Shown piece after piece: positions 1 through 35,769 of a stretch of 64,000 nt of DNA. The stretch is taken from positions 1 through 64,000 of the forward strand of contig PHBU01000002.1 of assembly GCA_002840685.1 (NCBI GenBank). Reading direction: 5' to 3'. Positions within the stretch are counted from its first letter, which is position 1. The number at the start of each line of letters is the position of its first letter. The stretch comes from Chloroflexi bacterium HGW-Chloroflexi-6. GTDB taxonomy: Bacteria > Chloroflexota > Anaerolineae > Anaerolineales > Villigracilaceae. The notes below the pieces were generated by a model. The model was given only the letters and a program-made list of their open reading frames with translations. It made no database searches and was not told where the DNA came from. The position numbers and the translations under genes are program-made.

Positions 1-658
1 CGGTCAGGGCCAGGGAAGTCTTGCCCAAACCGGGACGGGCGGCCAGAACGTACAGGGCTCCGGCCTGGAAGTTGCCCAGGCGATGGTCGAGATCGATCAA
101 GCCGCTGGGCGTGCCGGGCAGTTCGCTGATCCGGCTGAGGGCATCGATCTGGTCGAAGGCCTGGCCGAGCGCATCCCGCAGCGGGACCAGCTGGCCACCG
201 GTTTCGCGCAAGATCGCCCCTTCGAGAGCGGCCACAGATTGTTCTGTGGCCAGGGGCAGTTCGAGCGCCTGATCGTTGGCCAGGCTGGCGATCTTGTTGG
301 CGGCGGTTAGCATCTGGCGCCGGACAGCGGCTTCGCGCACGATCTGGCCGTATGCATCGGCGTGCAGCGTGGTCGGGGTGGCGTTCAGCATCCCCACCAG
401 GATGGCTGCCCCGCCCACCTCCTCGAGCTGGCCTTGTTTTTCAAGGCTCTCGGAAACGGTTAGGATGTCGATCGGGACGCGGCGCTCGACGAGACGGGCG
501 AAGGCCTGCCAGACAAAGCGCAGGCGGTGGATATAGAAATCTTCCGCGGACAAAAACTCGGACAGTTCGATATAAACATCCGGGTTGATCAGGACCGCGC
601 CGATCACGGCTTCTTCGGCCTGGCGGCTGTGCGGGATGAGGTTGGTTTCGGTGGACAT
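1..658 (-). CDS. dnaB: Replicative DNA helicase DnaB, C-terminus cut by window edge
   Basis: Read by hand from the minus strand; it is absent from the ORF track because no stop lies inside the window. It starts MSTETNLIPHSRQAEEAVIG, the conserved N-terminal DnaB opening, and about 219 residues are visible. They cover the all-helical primase-interacting N domain, the linker and the beginning of the RecA-like motor with Walker A ARPGLGKTSLALT (usual family form ARPGxGKT). DnaB unwinds DNA at the fork as a hexamer. An AGGAG lies inside the end of the upstream Rep-like gene, whose stop is 6 bases before this ATG, so the two are likely co-translated. Next to ParA and an iteron-like array, it is probably the helicase of a plasmid-type replicon and not the chromosomal copy (inference). 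Confidence 0.93.
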   Translation of the reverse strand, partial: MSTETNLIPHSRQAEEAVIGAVLINPDVYIELSEFLSAEDFYIHRLRFVWQAFARLVERRVPIDILTVSESLEKQGQLEEVGGAAILVGMLNATPTTLHADAYGQIVREAAVRRQMLTAANKIASLANDQALELPLATEQSVAALEGAILRETGGQLVPLRDALGQAFDQIDALSRISELPGTPSGLIDLDHRLGNFQAGALYVLAARPGLGKTSLALT

Positions 659-664
659 GGTTGA

Positions 665-1624
665 TTAGCTCCTTGGTTCGAAGTCTTTGATGACGTTTTC
701 TAACGTGCTTTTGAGCGACATGGATGGTTCTTGGGATTGCTCAGTGCTGGCCAGCGTGCTGGTCATGGTTTTGAGCAGCGCGCCGGGGTGGGCCACCGTG
801 AAAGGGCTCTGGTTCCAACGCTTCCAGGAGGCCTTCAGGGCAACGTCCAGGGTGGAGTTGTATTCGATGGCGAGTTTGTTCAATTTGCGAATGCCTTTGA
901 TCCAGAGTGCATACTCCCCACCCTTTTGGCCCGGATTGGGTTTCTCAGGCGGATGCAGGTTGAAAAGCGAGACGATCAACTTTGCTCCCGATTGGCAGTC
1001 TTCGGGAAAAGCCGAGATGCGATCTTCAAGATTGAACGAAGGGCGCGCGGGCGCGTCAGCGGCCATGTTCTTAATCTCCTTTAAAGAATGGTTCTCCTTA
1101 AGCGCGGATTTTCCTTGTTCGGAATTTTCCAGATTCGGAAAAATCCGTATGTGGCTTTTTTTGTTCTGTTCAGGCGTATCTTCAGCGCCTTGTTCCGGCT
1201 CTTCAACAGGCGCACCTTCAGCGTTGGCTTCAGCCGCTTTGGCGCTTGATGGTTCAAACTGTGCCAACTGATCCGGGCTTGGAAAGACGATGTAGCGGTT
1301 GCCACCCACGAAGCGATTTTTCTTATCGCGGATCCGGTAGCGCAGCAGGACACGTTGGCCATCGATCTCCAGATTGTTGAGATGCTCCAGGGCGCGTCCG
1401 ATCGTGTCCGTATTGATGCCGGTCTCCGTCCGGATCTGTTCATAACTCGGGAAGGACTCGCCTTGCGGGTTGGCATGCAAAACGATGCACATGAAGACAC
1501 CCAGCGACGCTCCTTTGAAGTGATGTAAGTGCTGGCGAAACTGAAAGCCTATTTGCATAAACAGTACTTCTGGGCTTGCATTGGCGCCAATTCCACGCCA
1601 GGAACCTGAGAAAACTTTGAACAT
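665..1624 (-). CDS. Winged-helix replication-initiator-like protein
   Basis: A protein of 319 aa. The ORF track extends it upstream through the repeat array, but ATG at 1624 is chosen because GGAG sits 7 bases before it and the preceding in-frame residues are translated repeats. Residues about 45-110 look like a winged helix of the replication-initiator/DnaD type (SYEQIRTETGINTDTIGRAL, then a basic beta wing RYRIRDKKNRFVGGNRYIVF). The middle is acidic and low complexity. The C-terminal third (about 225-300), with a PGQKGGEYALWIKGIRKL stretch, resembles DnaD-like C-terminal segments that touch the helicase. Position directly downstream of an iteron-like array and directly upstream of dnaB supports a Rep or helicase-loading role. 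Function is inferred; no family is certain. Confidence 0.72.
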   Translation of the reverse strand: MFKVFSGSWRGIGANASPEVLFMQIGFQFRQHLHHFKGASLGVFMCIVLHANPQGESFPSYEQIRTETGINTDTIGRALEHLNNLEIDGQRVLLRYRIRDKKNRFVGGNRYIVFPSPDQLAQFEPSSAKAAEANAEGAPVEEPEQGAEDTPEQNKKSHIRIFPNLENSEQGKSALKENHSLKEIKNMAADAPARPSFNLEDRISAFPEDCQSGAKLIVSLFNLHPPEKPNPGQKGGEYALWIKGIRKLNKLAIEYNSTLDVALKASWKRWNQSPFTVAHPGALLKTMTSTLASTEQSQEPSMSLKSTLENVIKDFEPRS

Positions 1625-1744
1625 CGAGCTACTCCATGCTTGTGTTGAAAGGCAACAGGAAGGCCGCTGCGGGGCGATGTTTTGGAGCCATAGCGCGGGC
1701 ATGTGGAGAAAATTACGCGGCTCTGTGGCCTTCCTGTTAAAGGC

Positions 1745-1827
1745 GGGTATGCGGCAGGGTATGCGGTGGAATATGCGGCAGGTATGCAGCCAGGTATGCG
1801 GCGGGTATGCGGCAGCCGCATACCCAT
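1745..1827. repeat. Iteron-like array, candidate replication origin or Rep operator
   Basis: Six direct copies of a TATGCGGC-type unit (TATGC at 1748, 1760, 1772, 1783, 1795 and 1806), spaced 11-12 bases so they fall on one face of the helix. They are followed by one inverted copy (GCCGCATACCCAT, 1815-1827). The array fills the only sizeable gap of the operon, between the ParA-partner gene and the Rep-like gene. Iterons next to a rep gene are typical of theta plasmids, though usual iterons are 17-22 bp. The array could instead be an operator bound by the Rep-like protein or the 215-aa protein. Confidence 0.7.
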
Positions 1828-1878
1828 TTATGCTGCCTAAAAAACTCACATCACTTTTGACGGAAAACCCGAAATTGA

Positions 1879-2526
1879 TCATTCTGAGCGACCCGCTGCC
1901 AGCCCCGGAACGACCATCTCCGGAGTGGTATAGAGAGCCAGGTTCCCGGCCCGGTACTCGGCCAGAGCATAGGTTAGAAGGCAGGTCATCACCTGACCAA
2001 TGGTGATGTGGATAACGTGTGGCGCTGCCTTGTCTTTTTCGATATTCGGGATGGCATAGATGGTTGCGATGATTTCTTCGGGCAGGCGATAGTTGGCGTG
2101 CGGCTGTTCCTTGCTCTTTTTCTTTTTGGCCTTGCGGGGTGGGATGGAACGGGAAACCAGGCCACTGCCGGTGTGGGATTTCAACGTGGATGCAGATGAA
2201 ACCTGGATCGTAGGCATCTTGAGATAGCCTGCCTCGTACTCGGCCAGCGCGTAACGAAGCAGCTCGCGCGCAACCGCATCGGCCCCGCCCACCATCCCGA
2301 ACTCATCGCGGAAGTGGGCGGCCAAGTCCAGGACCGCACCCTGGATTTCTTGCGGCACACCTGCAAAGGTTTTGTTCTTATGTTTGGACTCCCACTTGCG
2401 GTCACGCTGGTGGGCTGGCTTGCGTCCCCGGCCTGGGGCAGGGGCGGGGGCTGGAATGCTGTGGACATGCTCCTGCGGGGCAGGAGGCAGTTCTTCTAGA
2501 AAGGAGCGGCGGGGTTGTTGGTTCAT
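1879..2526 (-). CDS. ParA-partner protein, possible centromere-binding (ParB-like role)
   Basis: A protein of 215 aa. ATG at 2526 overlaps the parA stop as TAATG, so translation is coupled; the longer ORF-track start reads back through parA. It has a Pro/Arg-rich N-terminus (residues 24-50). Two similar segments follow, each ending in YALAEY(E/R)AG (about 57-104 and 146-195), separated by a very basic linker PPRKAKKKKSKEQ. This pseudo-repeat architecture and the basic linker suggest a DNA-binding dimer-like protein. I recognise no ParB or ribbon-helix-helix family signature. Its role as the partition partner of ParA is inferred from position only; it may bind the iteron-like array just downstream. 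Confidence 0.62.
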   Translation of the reverse strand: MNQQPRRSFLEELPPAPQEHVHSIPAPAPAPGRGRKPAHQRDRKWESKHKNKTFAGVPQEIQGAVLDLAAHFRDEFGMVGGADAVARELLRYALAEYEAGYLKMPTIQVSSASTLKSHTGSGLVSRSIPPRKAKKKKSKEQPHANYRLPEEIIATIYAIPNIEKDKAAPHVIHITIGQVMTCLLTYALAEYRAGNLALYTTPEMVVPGLAAGRSE

Positions 2527-3311
2527 TATTTCGCGCTCCGAACGATCTTGGCCAGTTGGCGGTAAGCCAGGGCTGCCGGGTTTTCGGGATCGAACTCGAA
2601 CAGCGTTTGACTTTTGCCCGCGCACTCCTTCATGGCAGCCCGGTCCGGCACAACCGGCAGCAGCAGGTCATCCCTGAGCGAAGCGCGCATCTCCTCTAGG
2701 GCGGCGCGGTGCTCGCGCGGCATGAAGGCCGTCCCATCTCCGCGCACCATCGTTGGCAGGATGCCCAACACGCGCCCGGGCCAATTATGTTGCTCGCTCA
2801 GGGTGTGGGTCATCTTCATCATCGACCCGACGCCGCTCACACTCAAGGCTTCAGCCTGGCTGGGAATGATCAACAGATCAGCGGCCCAGACAGCCCGCTC
2901 CTGGATACCGGATGCCGATGGGTTGGTGTCAATGATGATGAAGTGCAGGTCGTGGCGCAGGAAACGTTCGAGTGTCAGGCGCACCCAGTCGATACCCCGG
3001 CCTGAGGCGTTGATCTGGGCCTGCGCGCCAGATAGCCCGGCACTGGCGGGCAGGAGCTGGATGCGCTCGCGTAGTGGTACAACCAGGCTTTGAACCAGGC
3101 TGGTTTCGGCAGCGCCCAAGCCAAGGGTAAGTAGATACGAGGCTGCGTCCGAGCGCGGGACGCCGAACAGGACGGTCAGGTTGGCCTGCGGGTCGAAATC
3201 CACAAGCAAAACGTTGCGGCCCAGATCGGCCAGGGCTTGGGCCAGGTGGGCCGCGCTGGTCGTTTTACCGACGCCGCCCTTGTGGTTGGAAATTGTGATG
3301 ATTTGAGTCAT
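2526..3311 (-). CDS. parA: ParA/Soj-family partition ATPase
   Basis: A protein of 261 aa starting MTQIITISNHKGGVGKTTSA, with the deviant Walker A KGGVGKTT of ParA/MinD ATPases at the very N-terminus. Switch I is VDFDPQANLT, and the Walker B-like segment is FIIIDTNPSASG followed by DLLIIPSQAEALS. There is no N-terminal HTH, as in chromosomal Soj and type Ib plasmid ParA. ATG at 3311 is preceded by GGAGG at 6 bases; the ORF-track extension is unsupported. The gene overlaps the SH3b gene upstream by 4 bases and the 215-aa gene downstream by TAATG. ParA forms ATP-dependent gradients on nucleoid DNA to segregate replicons, fitting a plasmid or plasmid-like integrated element. Confidence 0.93.
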   Translation of the reverse strand: MTQIITISNHKGGVGKTTSAAHLAQALADLGRNVLLVDFDPQANLTVLFGVPRSDAASYLLTLGLGAAETSLVQSLVVPLRERIQLLPASAGLSGAQAQINASGRGIDWVRLTLERFLRHDLHFIIIDTNPSASGIQERAVWAADLLIIPSQAEALSVSGVGSMMKMTHTLSEQHNWPGRVLGILPTMVRGDGTAFMPREHRAALEEMRASLRDDLLLPVVPDRAAMKECAGKSQTLFEFDPENPAALAYRQLAKIVRSAK

Positions 3312-3730
3312 GGGGAACCTCCACAGAGAAATCGGGAATGAACCCAACCGGTCAACGGGGCGCTGATTTCGAGCCAGTCGCCATCGCTCTGGCCGGTTGG
3401 GGTGATGGAAACGGCTTCGGAGAGAGCGCCAAGCACGGGGGCCGTTGACCCTGCTTTGGCGCGTACATTGAGATGACCATTTTTCAGGCCGGTGCAGACC
3501 TGCCACCCCGTAGGCGGGGTGGCAGTCTTTGTCATCATTGGTTTTGATGTGGGAGCAGGGTTTGTGCTTTGGGTGTGCTCTTCGCTTGAGACCTGGGTAG
3601 CTCTGACAGGGGAGAACAGGCCAACGATGGTTGGGTCGCCGATGTGGTACATGAGTGCCAGCGTTCCAACTGCGCCGCCCAGGAATGCGACCAGGGAAAT
3701 CAGAGACAGGATGTTGCTTTTGCGAGTCAT
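3308..3730 (-). CDS. Membrane-anchored SH3b-domain protein
   Basis: A protein of 140 aa. Residues about 7-30 form a single hydrophobic segment (signal anchor), followed by a Ser/Thr/Pro-rich linker. The bacterial SH3 domain spans about 75-138: the motif WQVCTGLKNGHLNVRAKAGS and the ending GDWLEISAPLTGWVHSRFL match the usual SH3_3 pattern (NVRxxPG...GWV). SH3b domains bind peptidoglycan or short peptides outside the membrane. The start ATG overlaps the stop of the unlisted ORF upstream (ATGA), and its own TGA overlaps the parA ATG (ATGA). Being embedded in a replication/partition operon is unusual; a surface or conjugation-related role is possible. Confidence 0.75.
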   Translation of the reverse strand: MTRKSNILSLISLVAFLGGAVGTLALMYHIGDPTIVGLFSPVRATQVSSEEHTQSTNPAPTSKPMMTKTATPPTGWQVCTGLKNGHLNVRAKAGSTAPVLGALSEAVSITPTGQSDGDWLEISAPLTGWVHSRFLCGGSP

Positions 3731-3996
3731 TGTGGGTCTACCTTCCGAAGTGTGGTTTTGCCGTTTTTATCGGGGGTGAAGCTTGTGCCTGGAATAATGG
3801 TCAGGGCTGCGGGCTTGCCCTGGAGCCGGATGTTCATAGTTAGTACACTGGCCTGCCGGTTGAATGCGCCCAGGGCCATCAACAGGAGCCGCACCGCTTC
3901 GTGCTCTCGCAGTGGCCGCGAGGCTCCTGTTATCTGGCGGGCCTGGATCTCTTCCGCATTCAGCCTGTGCGCCAGGGTTAGGTCGAAACCCGGCAG
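3727..3996 (-). CDS. Small unknown protein missed by the ORF track (non-ATG start)
   Basis: An open frame with protein-like composition fills the apparent gap between the membrane protein and the SH3b gene. It reads ...FDLTLAHRLNAEEIQARQ... and ends ...NGKTTLRKVDPQ-stop, with its TGA overlapping the next ATG as ATGA, like its neighbours. No in-frame ATG exists near the expected start. CTG at 3996, just after the TAG of the membrane-protein gene, would give 89 aa, and the frame stays open further upstream, overlapping that gene. The competing frame (ORF track 3767..4075) is Arg/Pro/Ala-rich and looks like a shadow. Start codon and function are unknown. Confidence 0.55.
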   Translation of the reverse strand: MPGFDLTLAHRLNAEEIQARQITGASRPLREHEAVRLLLMALGAFNRQASVLTMNIRLQGKPAALTIIPGTSFTPDKNGKTTLRKVDPQ

Positions 3997-3998
3997 GC

Positions 3999-4859
3999 CT
4001 AGGAAAAATCCGGGGCACTCTCGCCAGGTCGGGCGGCTGATTTCGGCTTTCCATGTCCGTTTGCGCCAAAGGCATGCGCGGGGGCAGGTTCGAGCATCTC
4101 CGGGATGTTCAGCGGTACAGGTGTTGGGCTGTGCGGGAGTGTTTTGCGCGGGGCGTAGGTCTTTTTGGGGGTGTGGTAGTGGCGACCCTCGATCTCAGCG
4201 ATGGCCCGGCGCAGATTCTCGTATCCATACTCGGCGGCGATCCGCCGTTCCAGTTCCAGCCGGTTGCGAGCGCTGCCCAGTACACTTTCTGCCACTTCGG
4301 CGTTGCGTTCGGCCATCTCCTGCTTGGCAACCGCCACCGCGGTCAGGCGTTTGGCCTTGATATCCGGGTGAGAATAGAAGTAGACCAGAAACAGCACTGC
4401 GTGGATCGAAAGGCTGCCTGCCAGCAGTCCGAGCAGCGCTTCGGCATTGGCAATTTGTCCGCCAACGGCAGAAAACTCAGCGATGCCGATGATCACCCCC
4501 AGGCTGAAGGAGATGGCCATGCCCAGCCAGGCCACGCCGCGCATCAGTCCGCTGGCTTTGGCGTGTTGGACCGCGATCTCCCACAGGATGAAGGGGAAGA
4601 AGGTAGCCAGCACGGCAAACCAGGCCTTCCATGCTTCGCCGGTGTTTTGCATGGCGAAGTCGTAAACGCGATATTCGCCAGCCGCGAGCAGCAAGTTTCC
4701 AGCAATGAATGCGATATTGTGGGCGTTGTTCTTGAGCCAATCTGCGATCCCAACCTGCTGAACGCCGGTTTCGAACAGGGGTTCATGCTCTACGGCGTCG
4801 ATATCCTCCGGCAGGCCTTCGAAGGGGTTGCTGATGGGTGTTGTGTAACGAGTGTCCAT
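3999..4859 (-). CDS. Four-helix membrane protein of unknown function
   Basis: A protein of 286 aa from ATG 4859, with AGGAG about 11 bases upstream; the longer ORF-track start overlaps the 222-aa gene. Four hydrophobic segments occupy about residues 40-165 (IAFIAGNLLLAAGEYRVYDF, AWFAVLATFFPFILWEIAV, LGMAISFSLGVIIGIAEFSA, LGLLAGSLSIHAVLFLVYFY). A charged, probably helical cytosolic stretch follows (about 175-225, AERNAEVAESVLGSARNRLELERRI) and then a Pro-rich tail. No family recognised. In a plasmid-like operon a membrane protein of this shape could belong to a conjugation or surface-exclusion apparatus, but nothing in the sequence proves it. Confidence 0.65.
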   Translation of the reverse strand: MDTRYTTPISNPFEGLPEDIDAVEHEPLFETGVQQVGIADWLKNNAHNIAFIAGNLLLAAGEYRVYDFAMQNTGEAWKAWFAVLATFFPFILWEIAVQHAKASGLMRGVAWLGMAISFSLGVIIGIAEFSAVGGQIANAEALLGLLAGSLSIHAVLFLVYFYSHPDIKAKRLTAVAVAKQEMAERNAEVAESVLGSARNRLELERRIAAEYGYENLRRAIAEIEGRHYHTPKKTYAPRKTLPHSPTPVPLNIPEMLEPAPAHAFGANGHGKPKSAARPGESAPDFS

Positions 4860-4873
4860 GGTTTTTTTTTCTC

Positions 4874-5542
4874 CTATTGTGTGGTTGCTGTTGTGAAAGT
4901 CAGCCATTTCGATTGCTGGCGGACAGCGAACTGGTGGTGTGCCAGCGGAATGGTGAGTGTGGTGGGGGCGGTGAGGTTGAAGAGCGTTGTGAAGTCCGAT
5001 ATTGTGCCAACAACGATCTTGGTGAAGATGGAGCGGATGCTGCAGGCGTAACCTGGCGAAGCGCTGACGACCAGGTGAAACTGCGGGGCGTTTGCCAACA
5101 ATGATAGTGAGCGGTATTCGATGTCCCAACCTGCGCCCAGGTTATCCAACAGAATGGGCAGTCTGGGCGCGGAAGGTTTCTGCATGTGGTACTGCAGGAT
5201 GTCGCCCATCCGTTTTGGGCTGACAGCGGCGGTCATCGGGTTGATGCCGTGCCAGCGCTCTGGCGTTCTGGAGACGATGACCGCGCCAATCGATGTTTGC
5301 CTGCCTGGAAATATGGCAGTTGCCGCAATCGTTCCCAACAGGGCTTGCAGGCTGGCGGCGTGGTCACCGGTGGCCAGCATGGCCGGGCTTCTGGTGATGT
5401 TGGCGATAATCGGCAGGCCGTCTGCGGCCAGGCCGAGAGCATAGGTGTTAGGGGGCTGTGTGCTAGTTTGCAGTTGTTGCAGGGAAAGCTTGGCTGCTTG
5501 TGTTTTTGTGATTGGAGTAGACAGGCGTGATATTATTTGCAT
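4874..5542 (-). CDS. Unknown protein, faint resemblance to a degenerate DNA-translocase ATPase
   Basis: A protein of 222 aa; AAGGAG lies 9 bases before the ATG, and the first 10 bases overlap the end of the 71-aa gene. The segment GLPIIANITRSPAMLATGDH followed by AASLQALLGTIAATAIF is arranged like the Walker A region of FtsK/TraG-type translocases, where a pocket loop is followed by a helix. However, the GxxGxGKS residues are missing (ATGDHAAS instead). A later hydrophobic strand, RLPILLDNLGAGWD, sits where Walker B would be. It may be an inactive relative or an unrelated protein; this is inference from pattern only. It sits between two other unknown genes of the replicon operon. Confidence 0.5.
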   Translation of the reverse strand: MQIISRLSTPITKTQAAKLSLQQLQTSTQPPNTYALGLAADGLPIIANITRSPAMLATGDHAASLQALLGTIAATAIFPGRQTSIGAVIVSRTPERWHGINPMTAAVSPKRMGDILQYHMQKPSAPRLPILLDNLGAGWDIEYRSLSLLANAPQFHLVVSASPGYACSIRSIFTKIVVGTISDFTTLFNLTAPTTLTIPLAHHQFAVRQQSKWLTFTTATTQ

Positions 5543-5748
5543 AAGTTGTGTCTCCTTCGGGAATTTATTTTGAGTTTTTCAGCAGCATCTATCTCATAAA
5601 CATCATCAAGAGCTTCAGCGAATAGTCCCGCCAGCAATGTCATGACACGATCGAAGCGACCGCGTTCAGAAGCGGTTTCGGTGCGATGGAATCTGACTTC
5701 GAATTCGCAAGTGATGATTTTTTTATACCGATAATCTACTGAGCACAT
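5533..5748 (-). CDS. Small unknown protein, first gene of the replicon operon
   Basis: A protein of 71 aa. It ends ...RRRHNLCK with its stop inside the start of the 222-aa gene (10-base overlap), which supports coupling. The middle (FDRVMTLLAGLFAEALDDVY) is predicted helical and the ends are basic. No strong ribosome binding site precedes the ATG. No family recognised. It is the first frame on the minus strand after the divergent control region holding the 18-bp palindrome. Confidence 0.45.
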   Translation of the reverse strand: MCSVDYRYKKIITCEFEVRFHRTETASERGRFDRVMTLLAGLFAEALDDVYEIDAAEKLKINSRRRHNLCK

Positions 5749-5876
5749 GGCGGTGCTTGATATTGGTGGGGGATAAGGTTGGATTCATGTTTGTATCTTG
5801 GTGTGAAAGCCGATCCGCTGGTAGAATAGAAATAGCGGCACGCAGGCGTTGAAAACGTCCGTGTGTTTTGCTGGTG

Positions 5877-5916
5877 ACGAGCGTCCGGGCTGCCAGGCTT
5901 GAAGGACGCTCGTTTT
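5877..5916 (+). terminator. Hairpin with T-run, terminator or attenuator
   Basis: Perfect 10-base arms ACGAGCGTCC and GGACGCTCGT with a 17-base loop, followed by TTTT on the plus strand. No plus-strand gene precedes it in the window, so it may end a small transcript or form in the 5' leader of the minus-strand operon. Confidence 0.4.
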
Positions 5917-5989
5917 GCAATGTGATTTGGAAAAAGAAGGATGCGGTTACATATATGCTCCAATCTCTAAATATCGCAAATATCTACTG

Positions 5990-6007
5990 CCGATAATATA
6001 TTATCGG
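5990..6007. promoter_or_regulatory. 18-bp perfect palindrome, candidate operator of the HTH regulator
   Basis: CCGATAATATATTATCGG is identical to its own reverse complement. It lies 22 bases upstream of the -35 of the HTH gene and faces the minus-strand operon. A half-site CCGATAAT recurs near 5728. A dimeric Cro/CI-like protein, such as the one encoded next door, is the natural candidate to bind it (inference). Confidence 0.6.
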
Positions 6008-6028
6008 TCAATGTGATTATAGCACCAG

Positions 6029-6058
6029 TTGTGATATTTTCAATTGTTTTGGTATCAT
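6029..6058 (+). promoter_or_regulatory. Sigma70-type promoter of the HTH gene
   Basis: TTGTGA (6029-6034), 18-base spacer, TATCAT (6053-6058), placed about 30 bases before the start codon of the HTH regulator. Confidence 0.5.
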
Positions 6059-6090
6059 GGAATATGAATTAATTATCACTGGAGTAAAAA

Positions 6091-6426
6091 ATGAGCAGCA
6101 AATTCTCAGAATGGCTGAACGAGCGCTTTTTAGAGTGGGAGCAACAGCAAGGAAAACGGCAAACTGTTTCGGCGTTTGCACGTTACTTGGATGTTCCGCA
6201 GTCATCGTTATCAAGTTGGATGGCGGGTGCTTATGTGCCTTCAGGGGAGAACTTGCTCGTACTTGCTTCGAAGCTTGGAACAGAAATTTACGACACTTTA
6301 GGTGTTTTGCGTCCCCCAATTGCTGACCCGGATATTATTTATATTGCTTCCGTTTGGAAAGAACTATCTGAAAACGATCGTTCAGAATTGCTTGCTACGA
6401 TCAAGCGAAAATTACCAAGTTCATAA
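6091..6426 (+). CDS. XRE/Cro-type HTH regulator
   Basis: A protein of 111 aa with GGAG 6 bases before the ATG. Residues about 25-70 form a Cro/CI-like helix-turn-helix: TVSAFARYLDVPQSSLSSWM fits the HTH spacing (Q/S-A-x-x-L-x-V-x-x-S-x-L-S-x-W), followed by GENLLVLASKLGTEIYDTLG as the closing helices typical of XRE proteins. The C-terminus (ELSENDRSELLATIKRKL) is a short helix, perhaps for dimerisation. It is the last gene before the tRNA-derived boundary and is transcribed away from the replicon operon, as expected for the control gene of an integrative element. Confidence 0.85.
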   Translation: MSSKFSEWLNERFLEWEQQQGKRQTVSAFARYLDVPQSSLSSWMAGAYVPSGENLLVLASKLGTEIYDTLGVLRPPIADPDIIYIASVWKELSENDRSELLATIKRKLPSS

Positions 6427-6456
6427 CCGGTTCAAATCGTTGAACCGGTCATTATT
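6426..6456 (+). terminator. Terminator of the HTH gene
   Basis: Perfect stem ACCGGTTCAA-atcg-TTGAACCGGT (6426-6449) directly after the stop codon, followed by the T-rich run CATTATTTT. Confidence 0.7.
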
Positions 6457-6556
6457 TTACTAATCACAGGTCACAAGGCTCGATTGAACCAGTGTCCCTA
6501 AGGCTACCCCAAAAACACTGGTTTTGAGGACAGAGGTTGCGAAATCAAAGTTGCAG

Positions 6557-6598
6557 CTCATAACCCGGAGGTCGCAGGTTCGAGTCCTGTCCCCGCAA
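6557..6598 (+). other. attR-like 3' half of initiator tRNA-Met
   Basis: CTCATAACCCGGAGGTC begins exactly with the CAU anticodon loop and continues with the 3' anticodon stem CCCGG, variable loop, T-arm GCAGGTTCGAGTCCTGT and acceptor strand CCCCGCAA. The CCC after the loop is the hallmark of initiator tRNA (GGG/CCC stem). The 5' side is unrelated (TTGCAG cannot pair with CCCGG), so this is not a working tRNA. Tyrosine integrases often cut in the anticodon loop, leaving the tRNA 3' half duplicated at the far end of the element. The intact tRNA would lie left of the window. An inverted repeat AACCAGTGT/ACACTGGTT (6487-6523) just inside could be an integrase arm site. Confidence 0.75.
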
Positions 6599-6609
6599 CT
6601 TTGAATTAA

Positions 6610-6635
6610 CCGTAGTCCTTCGGGCTACGGTTTTT
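6610..6635 (+). terminator. Terminator following the tRNA fragment
   Basis: Stem CCGTAGTCC-tt-cGGGCTACGG ending in TTTTT. It sits 11 bases after the tRNA acceptor end, as expected for the original terminator of the tRNA gene carried with the 3' half. Confidence 0.75.
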
Positions 6636-6656
6636 CGTTAGCCCGGTGGCCTGTGG

Positions 6657-6907
6657 TTGGTCAATATTCTCGATATGGATGATTATTTGATGAATCATCG
6701 TCCTTCGGGTTCGTTACCCGTGAGCAAAGCCATTGTCGGTTTTCTAAATTTCAAAACCGCCGAAGCCTATCTGATCGCGCGATCGATTCGTATCAACGCC
6801 AGCTGCAAAAGTGATTGGAATATCTGGGGGATAAAGATGTTGCCACGATCACAGTCGCCGAATTAACCCAATATTTTAGCTGGCTACGTAACGAATTTAT
6901 TTCGTGA
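6657..6907 (+). pseudogene. Tyrosine recombinase N-terminal fragment (decayed integrase)
   Basis: Two frames together read like the SAM-like core-binding domain of XerC/XerD-type recombinases. The first is SKAIVGFLNFKTAEA. After a one-base shift near 6760 comes AIDSYQRQLQK-stop-LEYLGDKDVATITVAELTQ and then YFSWLRNEF. The internal stop is TGA where the family has Trp (QKWL), a simple TGG to TGA change. The catalytic domain (R..HxxR..Y) is absent: translation ends at 6907 and the sequence behind is AT-rich and featureless. It lies just outside the attR-like tRNA half, so it may belong to an older element at the same site. Confidence 0.7.
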
Positions 6908-7413
6908 GACAGTGATTTCATAAGGTAGGTTGATATAACAACGATATTATTGCGATGGCGGCGATTTTCCTATCGAAACAATTTCCAATAGATTAGTTCT
7001 GCTGATGAAAAAATATCGGATTTGAACCTCATCGGGGCCGTCAATGGTAAAAAATAGGCGGTGCTGATGCACAAAAAAAACACTCTGACCACAGAGTTAT
7101 GGTAAGGTGCAAGAATTGCAATGAGATCGCTCCTGTTACAGCAGGGGCGATCTCGTTTAATTTACCCTGATTTCGCGCAGGGGTCAGGCAATTGGAAAAA
7201 GTAATTGCTAAAATGCTATTTAAATTCTCCCTCCTGGGCTGGTGTTATTTGGTCCCAAAAATCAAATTAAGCCAGATTTCCGCCATCAATAACTTTAGGG
7301 CCTCCCAAAGATCAAATGCAACAATTTTAATAGACAGTTGGAATCAAGGTTGCAGTGAGAGAATAGGGGACATAAGCACATTCATTTAGGAAAACCTTAT
7401 CACAAAGCGTTGC
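6908..7413. other. AT-rich gene-free stretch with one terminator-like stem
   Basis: About 500 bases with no credible gene; the short ORF at 7192 shows no recognisable features. The only structure is the hairpin at 7123-7158, which I list separately. Composition matches the decayed integrase region. Confidence 0.5.
7123..7158 (+). terminator. Strong hairpin with short T-run
   Basis: GAGATCGCTCCTG / CAGGGGCGATCTC around a TTACAG loop, then GTTT. It could end a lost gene upstream of it. Confidence 0.5.
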
Positions 7414-12288: not shown

Positions 12289-12391
12289 GTTCTCACGGAC
12301 ATTTTGGCCCATTTTTTTGCACTTTGGTCAACGAGTGCAATTCGGATTACTTGGTCAGCATTTTAGCTACGTAAATAATGTGCGCAGACAT

Positions 12392-12805
12392 CTACTTTGT
12401 TTCTCTGGATCGATTATCCCGCTCCCAGCGCAGGATGGCCTGATTCAGCCAGGCGATGCGGTTGCCCTGTGGATTTTTCTGGCGCTCAAACTCAATCAAT
12501 CGTTCGGCGGTAGACCGGTTGCCGCCGACTTTGCTGAGCAGGTTGTTGAACAGTTCAGCCTGGTGGTTGATGGCTGCGCCGAACAAATCATCTGCCGGGT
12601 GGGGCTTGTTGATCAGTCGTCGCATCAGCGCGCCGAACCAGTTCTCTTGCCGCGAAGGAGAGCGTGGCGGCTCCTGGTCAGCCTCCGGCTCATAGATATT
12701 GACGCCGCAATTCGGACAGCGTGTCAGTTCGTAGTGGAAATATGCGCCACAACGACCACATTCGATTTCGTTCTCGGCAGGTTGGGGATCAAGACTGGTG
12801 GGCAT
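12392..12805 (-). CDS. Double-zinc-ribbon-type protein, copy 1
   Basis: A protein of 137 aa starting MPTSLDPQPAENE at 12805; the track extends it by 23 codons, but the near-identical copy at 35 kb starts here. Residues 15-34 hold CGRCGAYFHYELTRCPNCG, a CxxC...CxxC zinc ribbon. After a Pro/Ser linker, the C-terminal half is helical and charged (LFNNLLSKVGGNRSTAERLI, WLNQAILRWERDNR). I do not recognise the family; similar small ribbon proteins often bind nucleic acid or regulatory partners. By hand alignment, copy 2 differs by 15 substitutions and a one-residue indel, and the flanking DNA is also conserved. Confidence 0.75.
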   Translation of the reverse strand: MPTSLDPQPAENEIECGRCGAYFHYELTRCPNCGVNIYEPEADQEPPRSPSRQENWFGALMRRLINKPHPADDLFGAAINHQAELFNNLLSKVGGNRSTAERLIEFERQKNPQGNRIAWLNQAILRWERDNRSRETK

Positions 12806-13060
12806 GATGCATTTGCTTTCTCTTGGGATATGCACAAAATCAAATCCACGCACATTGTTGTCACTATACAACATTTCAACTGTATTTTTGCGTTAAATCT
12901 GTCCACATTCTCGGGCGGAATATCTTAAGATAAGGCGCATTGTATGCACATATACACCTGAAACCTTCACAAAACCTGGCTTTTGGGGGAAGTTTGCCAC
13001 CGAAATTATGATCGCATAACGTTAAATGCACTTGATCGGGAGACTATCCGGAATTATGAG

Positions 13061-34850: not shown

Positions 34851-34974
34851 TCACCTGTTGGTTTTTGGTCAAGGGATGCAATTCGGATTTCTTGGCCGGT
34901 ATTTGGCTATTGGGGCGCTAATCCAGAACGCGGATGTAATGGAAATCTGCCAGCGTGAAAATGTGCGCAGCCAG

Positions 34975-35385
34975 CTACTTTGTTTCGGTAGAGCGATTGT
35001 CCCGCTCCCAGCGCTGGATGGCCTGATTTAGCCAGGCGATGCGGTTGCCTTGTGGGTTTTTCTGACGCTCGAACTCAATCAGGCGTTCGGCAGCAGAGCG
35101 GTTGCCACCAACTTTGCTGAGCAGATTGTTGAACAACTCGGCCTGGTTGATGGCCGCGCCGAACAACTCATCTGCCGGGTGAGGCTTGTTGGTCAGTCTT
35201 CGAATTAACGCGCTGAACCAGTTCTCCTGTCGCGCAGGGGAGTGTGATGGCTGCCGATCAGCCTCCGGCTCATAAATATTGACACCGCAATTCGGGCAGC
35301 GGGCTAGTTCATAATAGAAATTTGCGCCACAACGACCACATTCGATTTCGTTTTCGGCGGGTTGGGGGTCAAGACTGGTGGGCAT
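34975..35385 (-). CDS. Double-zinc-ribbon-type protein, copy 2
   Basis: A protein of 136 aa, almost identical to the product of 12392..12805. It keeps CGRCGANFYYELARCPNCG, the Pro/Ser linker and the helical C-terminus ending WERDNRSTETK. The similarity extends into non-coding DNA on both sides (for example ACTATACAACATTTCAACTG upstream in both), so this is a segmental duplication of about 0.6 kb. No family recognised. The substitutions are conservative and the frame is intact in both copies, suggesting both are functional. Confidence 0.75.
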   Translation of the reverse strand: MPTSLDPQPAENEIECGRCGANFYYELARCPNCGVNIYEPEADRQPSHSPARQENWFSALIRRLTNKPHPADELFGAAINQAELFNNLLSKVGGNRSAAERLIEFERQKNPQGNRIAWLNQAIQRWERDNRSTETK

Positions 35386-35769
35386 GGGGCATTCGCTTTC
35401 TCTTGGGAATTGAACGAATTCAAATCCCTACACATTATTACCACTATACAACATTTCAACTGTATTTTTGCGTTACATTTGTCTATACTCGCGGGGAAAA
35501 ATGTTCTGACTTCGGTGCTCAAAAGGGCAACTTGTTAATGAAGATTTTCTGTATTTCCGAAAAGTCGAATTATCTCCAAAAGATAACCCACAATCCCCCG
35601 CAAATCAATTGGTCTTGCGCGGGAAGATTGTGCAGAAGTCATCGATTTTGATGTGATTTTCTATGCAATTAGCGGGGAAAAACGATTACACTTAATAGGT
35701 CTGCATATTATTTGACGGGTTGGGCGAACATTCAGATAATGTAATCTTGGTGCTTATTTTGGGTAGGTT
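35386..35769. other. Divergent intergenic region, partly duplicated
   Basis: The first 110 bases match the upstream flank of zinc-ribbon copy 1 (12806-12910). The remainder is AT-rich and leads to the second trypsin-NB-ARC gene. I see no clear operator; the ribosome site before 35770 is weak (TAGGTT). Confidence 0.45.

Follow-up and report, generated by a model that had tools for sequence, protein, structure and literature searches.

The metV gene of Escherichia coli encodes initiator tRNA. It is among the most targeted tDNAs in E. coli (PMC7545054). The 3919 islands of the Islander collection comprise 2083 anticodon-centred and 1836 T-stem-region sites and include 125 tandems (PMC4383910), and in the established model the anticodon loop of 7 bp serves as the overlap region (PMC8371274). 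In GInts (PMC5385486) three integrases, ginABC, and ginD form one operon at one end of the element, with variable cargo behind.

We analyzed the first 64 kb (hereafter the window) of contig C19 (407 kb) from an Anaerolineae genome (G000; 5.26 Mb in 39 contigs). Positions 6556-6599 are very probably an attR, left where an element with a tyrosine integrase entered the initiator tRNA gene at its anticodon loop; an older, related element would by then have stood behind that gene. As in Islander islands of subsite 'A' (PMC4383910), the regenerated tDNA would stand beside a tyrosine integrase, with a displaced 3' fragment at the opposite end in the same orientation; a probable anticodon-loop crossover and the occurrence of tandems are further points in common. 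Unlike those islands, the locus has its two ends on separate contigs, it lies in an Anaerolineae genome and targets the one initiator tRNA gene found there, and for some att-bounded cargoes in relatives (G049) none of the genes tested is a recognizable integrase. E. coli metV islands (PMC7545054) likewise target the initiator tRNA gene but belong to another host phylum; the likeness drawn here is one of target gene. As in GInts (PMC5385486), one end of the locus has more than one tyrosine recombinase gene and a small accessory gene, with variable cargo behind; instead of a ginABCD operon, however, it has two convergent recombinase genes and an HTH-like gene. Since anticodon sites are the commonest in Islander and metV is an E. 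coli hotspot, the site type and mechanism are ordinary, and the preliminary description, which had taken such a site to be unusual, does not hold on this point. A description of the integrase clade and of the hotspot in this Chloroflexota order was not found in the limited literature searched.

A displaced 3' part of the initiator tRNA gene

The window contains the 44 nt at the 3' end of an initiator tRNA gene, the first of them being the last base of the anticodon stem, and they match every corresponding position of the complete tRNA-fMet(CAT) gene found elsewhere in the assembly (Table 1). The preliminary description had placed this half at 6557-6598, within one base of the present limits at either end. 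Neither ARAGORN nor Rfam at its gathering threshold detects a tRNA anywhere in the 64-kb window, and the tRNA 5' half is absent from the sequence left of 6556 (...AGAGGTTGCGAAATCAAAGTTGCA). Weak Rfam matches near the site were dismissed as chance-level. The half-tRNA match itself is not a chance one, because similarity runs from window 6556-6896 along C10:7493-7834 for 342 bp at 93.6% identity (E ~1e-146). It therefore passes the end of the tRNA and a terminator-like hairpin, conserved at C10 and in relatives, and enters a decayed integrase gene (6657 to ~6904), an extension that had previously escaped notice.

Perfect conservation of the 44 nt and retention of the terminator could also be expected of a functional split-tRNA or tRNA-derived RNA gene. 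We consider this extremely improbable: an intact initiator gene is present and a separate 5' half gene was not found, the identity continues through non-tRNA sequence, and the halves of other genomes lie at junctions with various flanks. Comparison with the C10 sequence supports the reading of window 6556-6599 as an att site formed by a displaced 3' fragment of the kind that marks tDNA islands.

Table 1. Features at the left end of the window, with strand and basis of assignment
Feature	Position	Strand	Basis
Right end of replicon-like mobile element	1..6555	.	Pfam; 1-5301 92% identical to G001:C221
DnaB helicase, N-terminal part, cut by contig end	2-658	-	Pfam
ParA ATPase	2526 to ~3311	-	Pfam
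Proteins of no assigned function and probable membrane proteins	3999-5542	-	
HTH_3 regulator, last element gene before att site	6091..6426	+	Pfam PF01381, E 1.7e-6
Putative element-side half-site (arm) beside crossover	6532..6555	+	Resembles att sites of other genera
Displaced 3' part (positions 30-73) of initiator tRNA-fMet(CAT) gene, very probable attR	6556..6599	+	44/44 identity to C10:7493-7536
7-nt anticodon loop CTCATAA, tRNA positions 31-37; candidate overlap (strand-exchange) region	6557..6563	+	Halves elsewhere start at 29-31
Terminator-like hairpin CCGTAGTCCTTCGGGCTACGG followed by T5; tRNA 3' flank within att region	6610..6635	+	Read from sequence
Decayed tyrosine integrase, 5' end, ~83 codons, with frameshift and in-frame TGA	6657..6904 (end approximate)	+	Alignment to C10:7594-8622; tblastn
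98-bp segment, 89% identical to C10:11012-11108	6905..7002	+	Alignment
Dispersed intergenic repeat, outside att site, between module remnant and TetR/Fe-S genes	7024..7214	.	71-83% copies at several places

The intact tRNA-fMet gene and its integrase module

An intact tRNA-fMet gene accompanied by an integrase had been anticipated, and both are present on contig C10. In a search with the whole tRNA, C10:7464-7536 was the sole complete tRNA-fMet found in the assembly, the next-best match being a different CAT tRNA on C17 (79% identity). An intact tyrosine integrase (int; C10:7594-8622, 342 residues, Pfam Phage_integrase E 1.1e-31) starts 58 bp behind the gene on the same strand, the proximity of integrase and tDNA by which tDNA islands are recognized. 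Convergent with int (+) lies a second, divergent tyrosine recombinase, rec2 (C10:8707-9813, minus), which has a Pfam E value of 2.4e-4, a match that falls short of the curated cut-off, and a readable HxxR...H...Y arrangement. A small gene (C10:9797-10183, minus) appears by eye to have an HTH-like N-terminus, for which Pfam gives DUF5679 only. The module behind int is 95% identical to that of G001, a related species, as compared to 88% for a 7.9-kb block including the upstream chromosome.

Several further observations were made on this contig. The integrase 3' end carries a 100-bp near-tandem duplication (C10:8564-8744, 97% identical). Directly behind the module, a methyltransferase-like gene accompanies a large protein (C10:11964-14372) that looks by eye like a putative cytochrome cd1 nitrite reductase; this region is 93% identical to G001:C184, where it lies away from the integrase, and a 67% homologue adjoins a partial tRNA-fMet half in G026:C55. 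The end of C10 (69653-70729) and the start of C39 (1-1075) are inverted, 94% identical copies containing another tyrosine recombinase gene.

Probable remains of an older element to the right of the half

The right side had been described as plain chromosome, which proved incorrect for its first ~450 bp, occupied by the remnant of another integrase module. The 98-bp segment that follows the decayed integrase start has its C10 counterpart behind the integrase, the second recombinase and the HTH gene, so that the remnant retains both ends of a module whose middle is missing, with an implied internal deletion of ~3.2 kb relative to C10. Judged by these alignments, the integrase start and the 98-bp segment would be the remains of an earlier, related element. 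Beyond them lies a repeat of ~150-190 bp, which recurs at 71-83% identity in several locations of G000, G001 and G003, and then come genes for a TetR-like and an Fe-S protein. The G001 orthologues of these two genes have a different left neighbour, and the native right chromosomal flank, sought via this G001 block, was not recovered; apart from one gene, the G001 attR flank (C127) showed no synteny with G000 either. Elsewhere in the window, a 539-bp direct repeat (12377-12915 and 34960-35495) is 85% identical between its copies.

The replicon-like left side and the contig joins

The plasmid-like character attributed to the left side is borne out by its DnaB, ParA and HTH genes and by its recurrence in a sister genome, G001, which in addition to the left part of the window on C221 holds a replicon of the type seen on C32 at 94% (C61). 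These identities (92-94%) exceed the ~83-88% of other stretches shared by the two genomes, which fits a mobile element. Conjugation families were absent among the ten proteins scanned with Pfam; for the element, the reading covered its last 6.5 kb and the ambiguous C23 end. Related replicon ends with DnaB, ParA and other proteins are found at window 1-5563 and C32:1-5331, the C32 version adjoining a serine-recombinase-like gene.

Contig C19 starts inside dnaB, at window position 1. The remainder of dnaB lies at the end of C23, together with an unassigned gene and a further tyrosine recombinase. This end shares 86 bp with the start of C19 and likewise with that of C32, which makes the left join of C19 ambiguous. 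No overlap of the C19 start with C10, C17 or C39 was detected. In G003, the int remnant at tRNA-fMet has beside it, in matching relative orientation, a fragment that shares 75% identity with the C23 recombinase, which weakly links this recombinase to the tRNA-fMet integrase.

We think it probable that C10 and C19 hold the two ends of one element, unjoined in the assembly; the C10 integrase would then belong to the same element as the left part of the window. As the contamination of the genome is estimated at 5.08% and the two contigs are not joined, C19 could instead derive from another strain or species binned with this one, in which case the half would be the attR of that strain's element and unrelated to the C10 copy. 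This is very unlikely, as the assembly lacks a second tRNA-fMet, and G001 holds the C10-type int module together with both replicon types at 92-95% identity, showing that the combination of module and replicon recurs in one genome.

Half copies of tRNA-fMet in relatives

The search for tRNA-fMet was extended to 60 relatives, many of which combine a single complete gene with one fragment or two. At least nine further half copies begin at tRNA position 29-31 and reach the 3' end (in G001, G002, G005, G033, G035, G039, G059 and twice in G049), and partial cases occur in G013 and G026. Contigs of G001 and G039 break within tRNA-fMet, as expected of a duplicated att core. Immediately left of the point where the halves begin, the 16-nt arms of nine att sites are identical at a mean of 7.1 of 16 positions, compared with 4.0 +/- 1.8 for random pairs; the bases concerned, for example GCGAAATCAaagTTGCA in the window and GCGAAATCAggaTTGCA in G033, are unrelated to the tRNA. 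Such similarity across genera would be expected if these bases formed the element's half of an integrase core site, for which the arm may accordingly be regarded as a candidate. Direct-repeat arm sites were clear in G039, G059 and G049 (0-1 of 200 shuffles), weak in the window (16/200) and in G005 (10/200) and absent in G033, G035 and G002 by the same 200-shuffle test; at 16/200 they are not claimed for the window.

These comparisons bear on whether the half could be a passenger. In that case transposition or homologous recombination would have brought a second copy of the tRNA-int locus here, and the replicon-like DNA to its left would be a different, abutting insertion. With its 94% identity to C10 and the same module parts, the remnant would suit a passenger, as would the C32 replicon, which lies beside its serine-recombinase-like gene away from any tRNA-fMet half. 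The junction nevertheless falls on the base where the halves of other genera begin, which disfavours random duplication, and the left arm resembles theirs; we therefore hold a passenger origin to be unlikely.

Under the preferred reading, integration into the tRNA gene, the attP element would have consisted of the left arm, CTCATAA, the tRNA 3' half, the terminator and int. On recombination with the tRNA gene, its own 3' half would have re-formed a complete gene at the int end (now C10), and the original 3' half would have been displaced to the far end of the element, at window 6556-6599. An older related element would already have stood behind the target and would account for the decayed integrase following the displaced half. 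The crossover presumably took place within CTCATAA, which may be the overlap region according to the 7-bp-loop model cited in PMC8371274, and the C10 integrase or a close relative would have made the window junction.

Stages of this history can be seen within the genus: an intact module beside a complete tRNA-fMet (G000, G001), a complete tRNA-fMet followed by a decayed int (G003, G004) and a half followed by an int remnant (the G000 window and G002). An empty site uniting the same two flanks was not found; the left flank is syntenic in G001 and G004, where the right flanks differ or the contigs end.

An integrase clade associated with tRNA-fMet

Nine integrases, counting that of C10, are at least 44% identical to the C10 enzyme and have upstream DNA to hand. 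Eight of them start 58-231 bp behind tRNA-fMet or its half on the same strand, the exception being G013:C16, whereas no such position was seen for any more distant integrase among those examined; two of the latter sit behind sequence matching the T-arm part of the tRNA only. Integrases at or above this identity thus constitute a tRNA-fMet-specific clade, and the distribution of halves points to an insertion spot used repeatedly in related Chloroflexota (Anaerolineae). The most likely explanation overall is repeated, stacked integration by this clade with crossover in the anticodon loop.

A tRNA-fMet-specific integrase clade and an insertion hotspot are thereby identified across an order of Chloroflexota, and islands in this order may be mapped by seeking tRNA-fMet fragments that start at the anticodon loop. 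The insertions are stacked at the only initiator tRNA gene found in the assembly, and each of them must restore that gene.

Stacked cargoes in relatives

On contig C20 of G049, a complete tRNA-fMet (107.5 kb) and two halves on the same strand (93.4 and 82.3 kb) bound two cargoes in tandem (82312-107604). The inner cargo contains a Wadjet system (JetA, a JetD C-terminal domain, an SMC-like protein and a DUF4194 protein). Among the G049 genes tested, no integrase was recognized. A speculative and rather unlikely extension is that in this order the initiator tRNA gene serves for the loading of cassettes: one integrase clade, with the help of rec2 and the HTH-like protein, would stack att-bounded cargoes behind it, some of them integrase-less and moved in trans. 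If true, replicons, sugar-use genes and Wadjet would all be cargoes of a tRNA-gene platform that bears some resemblance to an integron.

Separately, ~12 kb between an integrase end and the half tRNA-fMet of G035:C136 carry sugar-uptake and glycosidase genes (GH94, GH1, ABC transporter), and the tRNA-fMet of G003 also seems to adjoin sugar genes.
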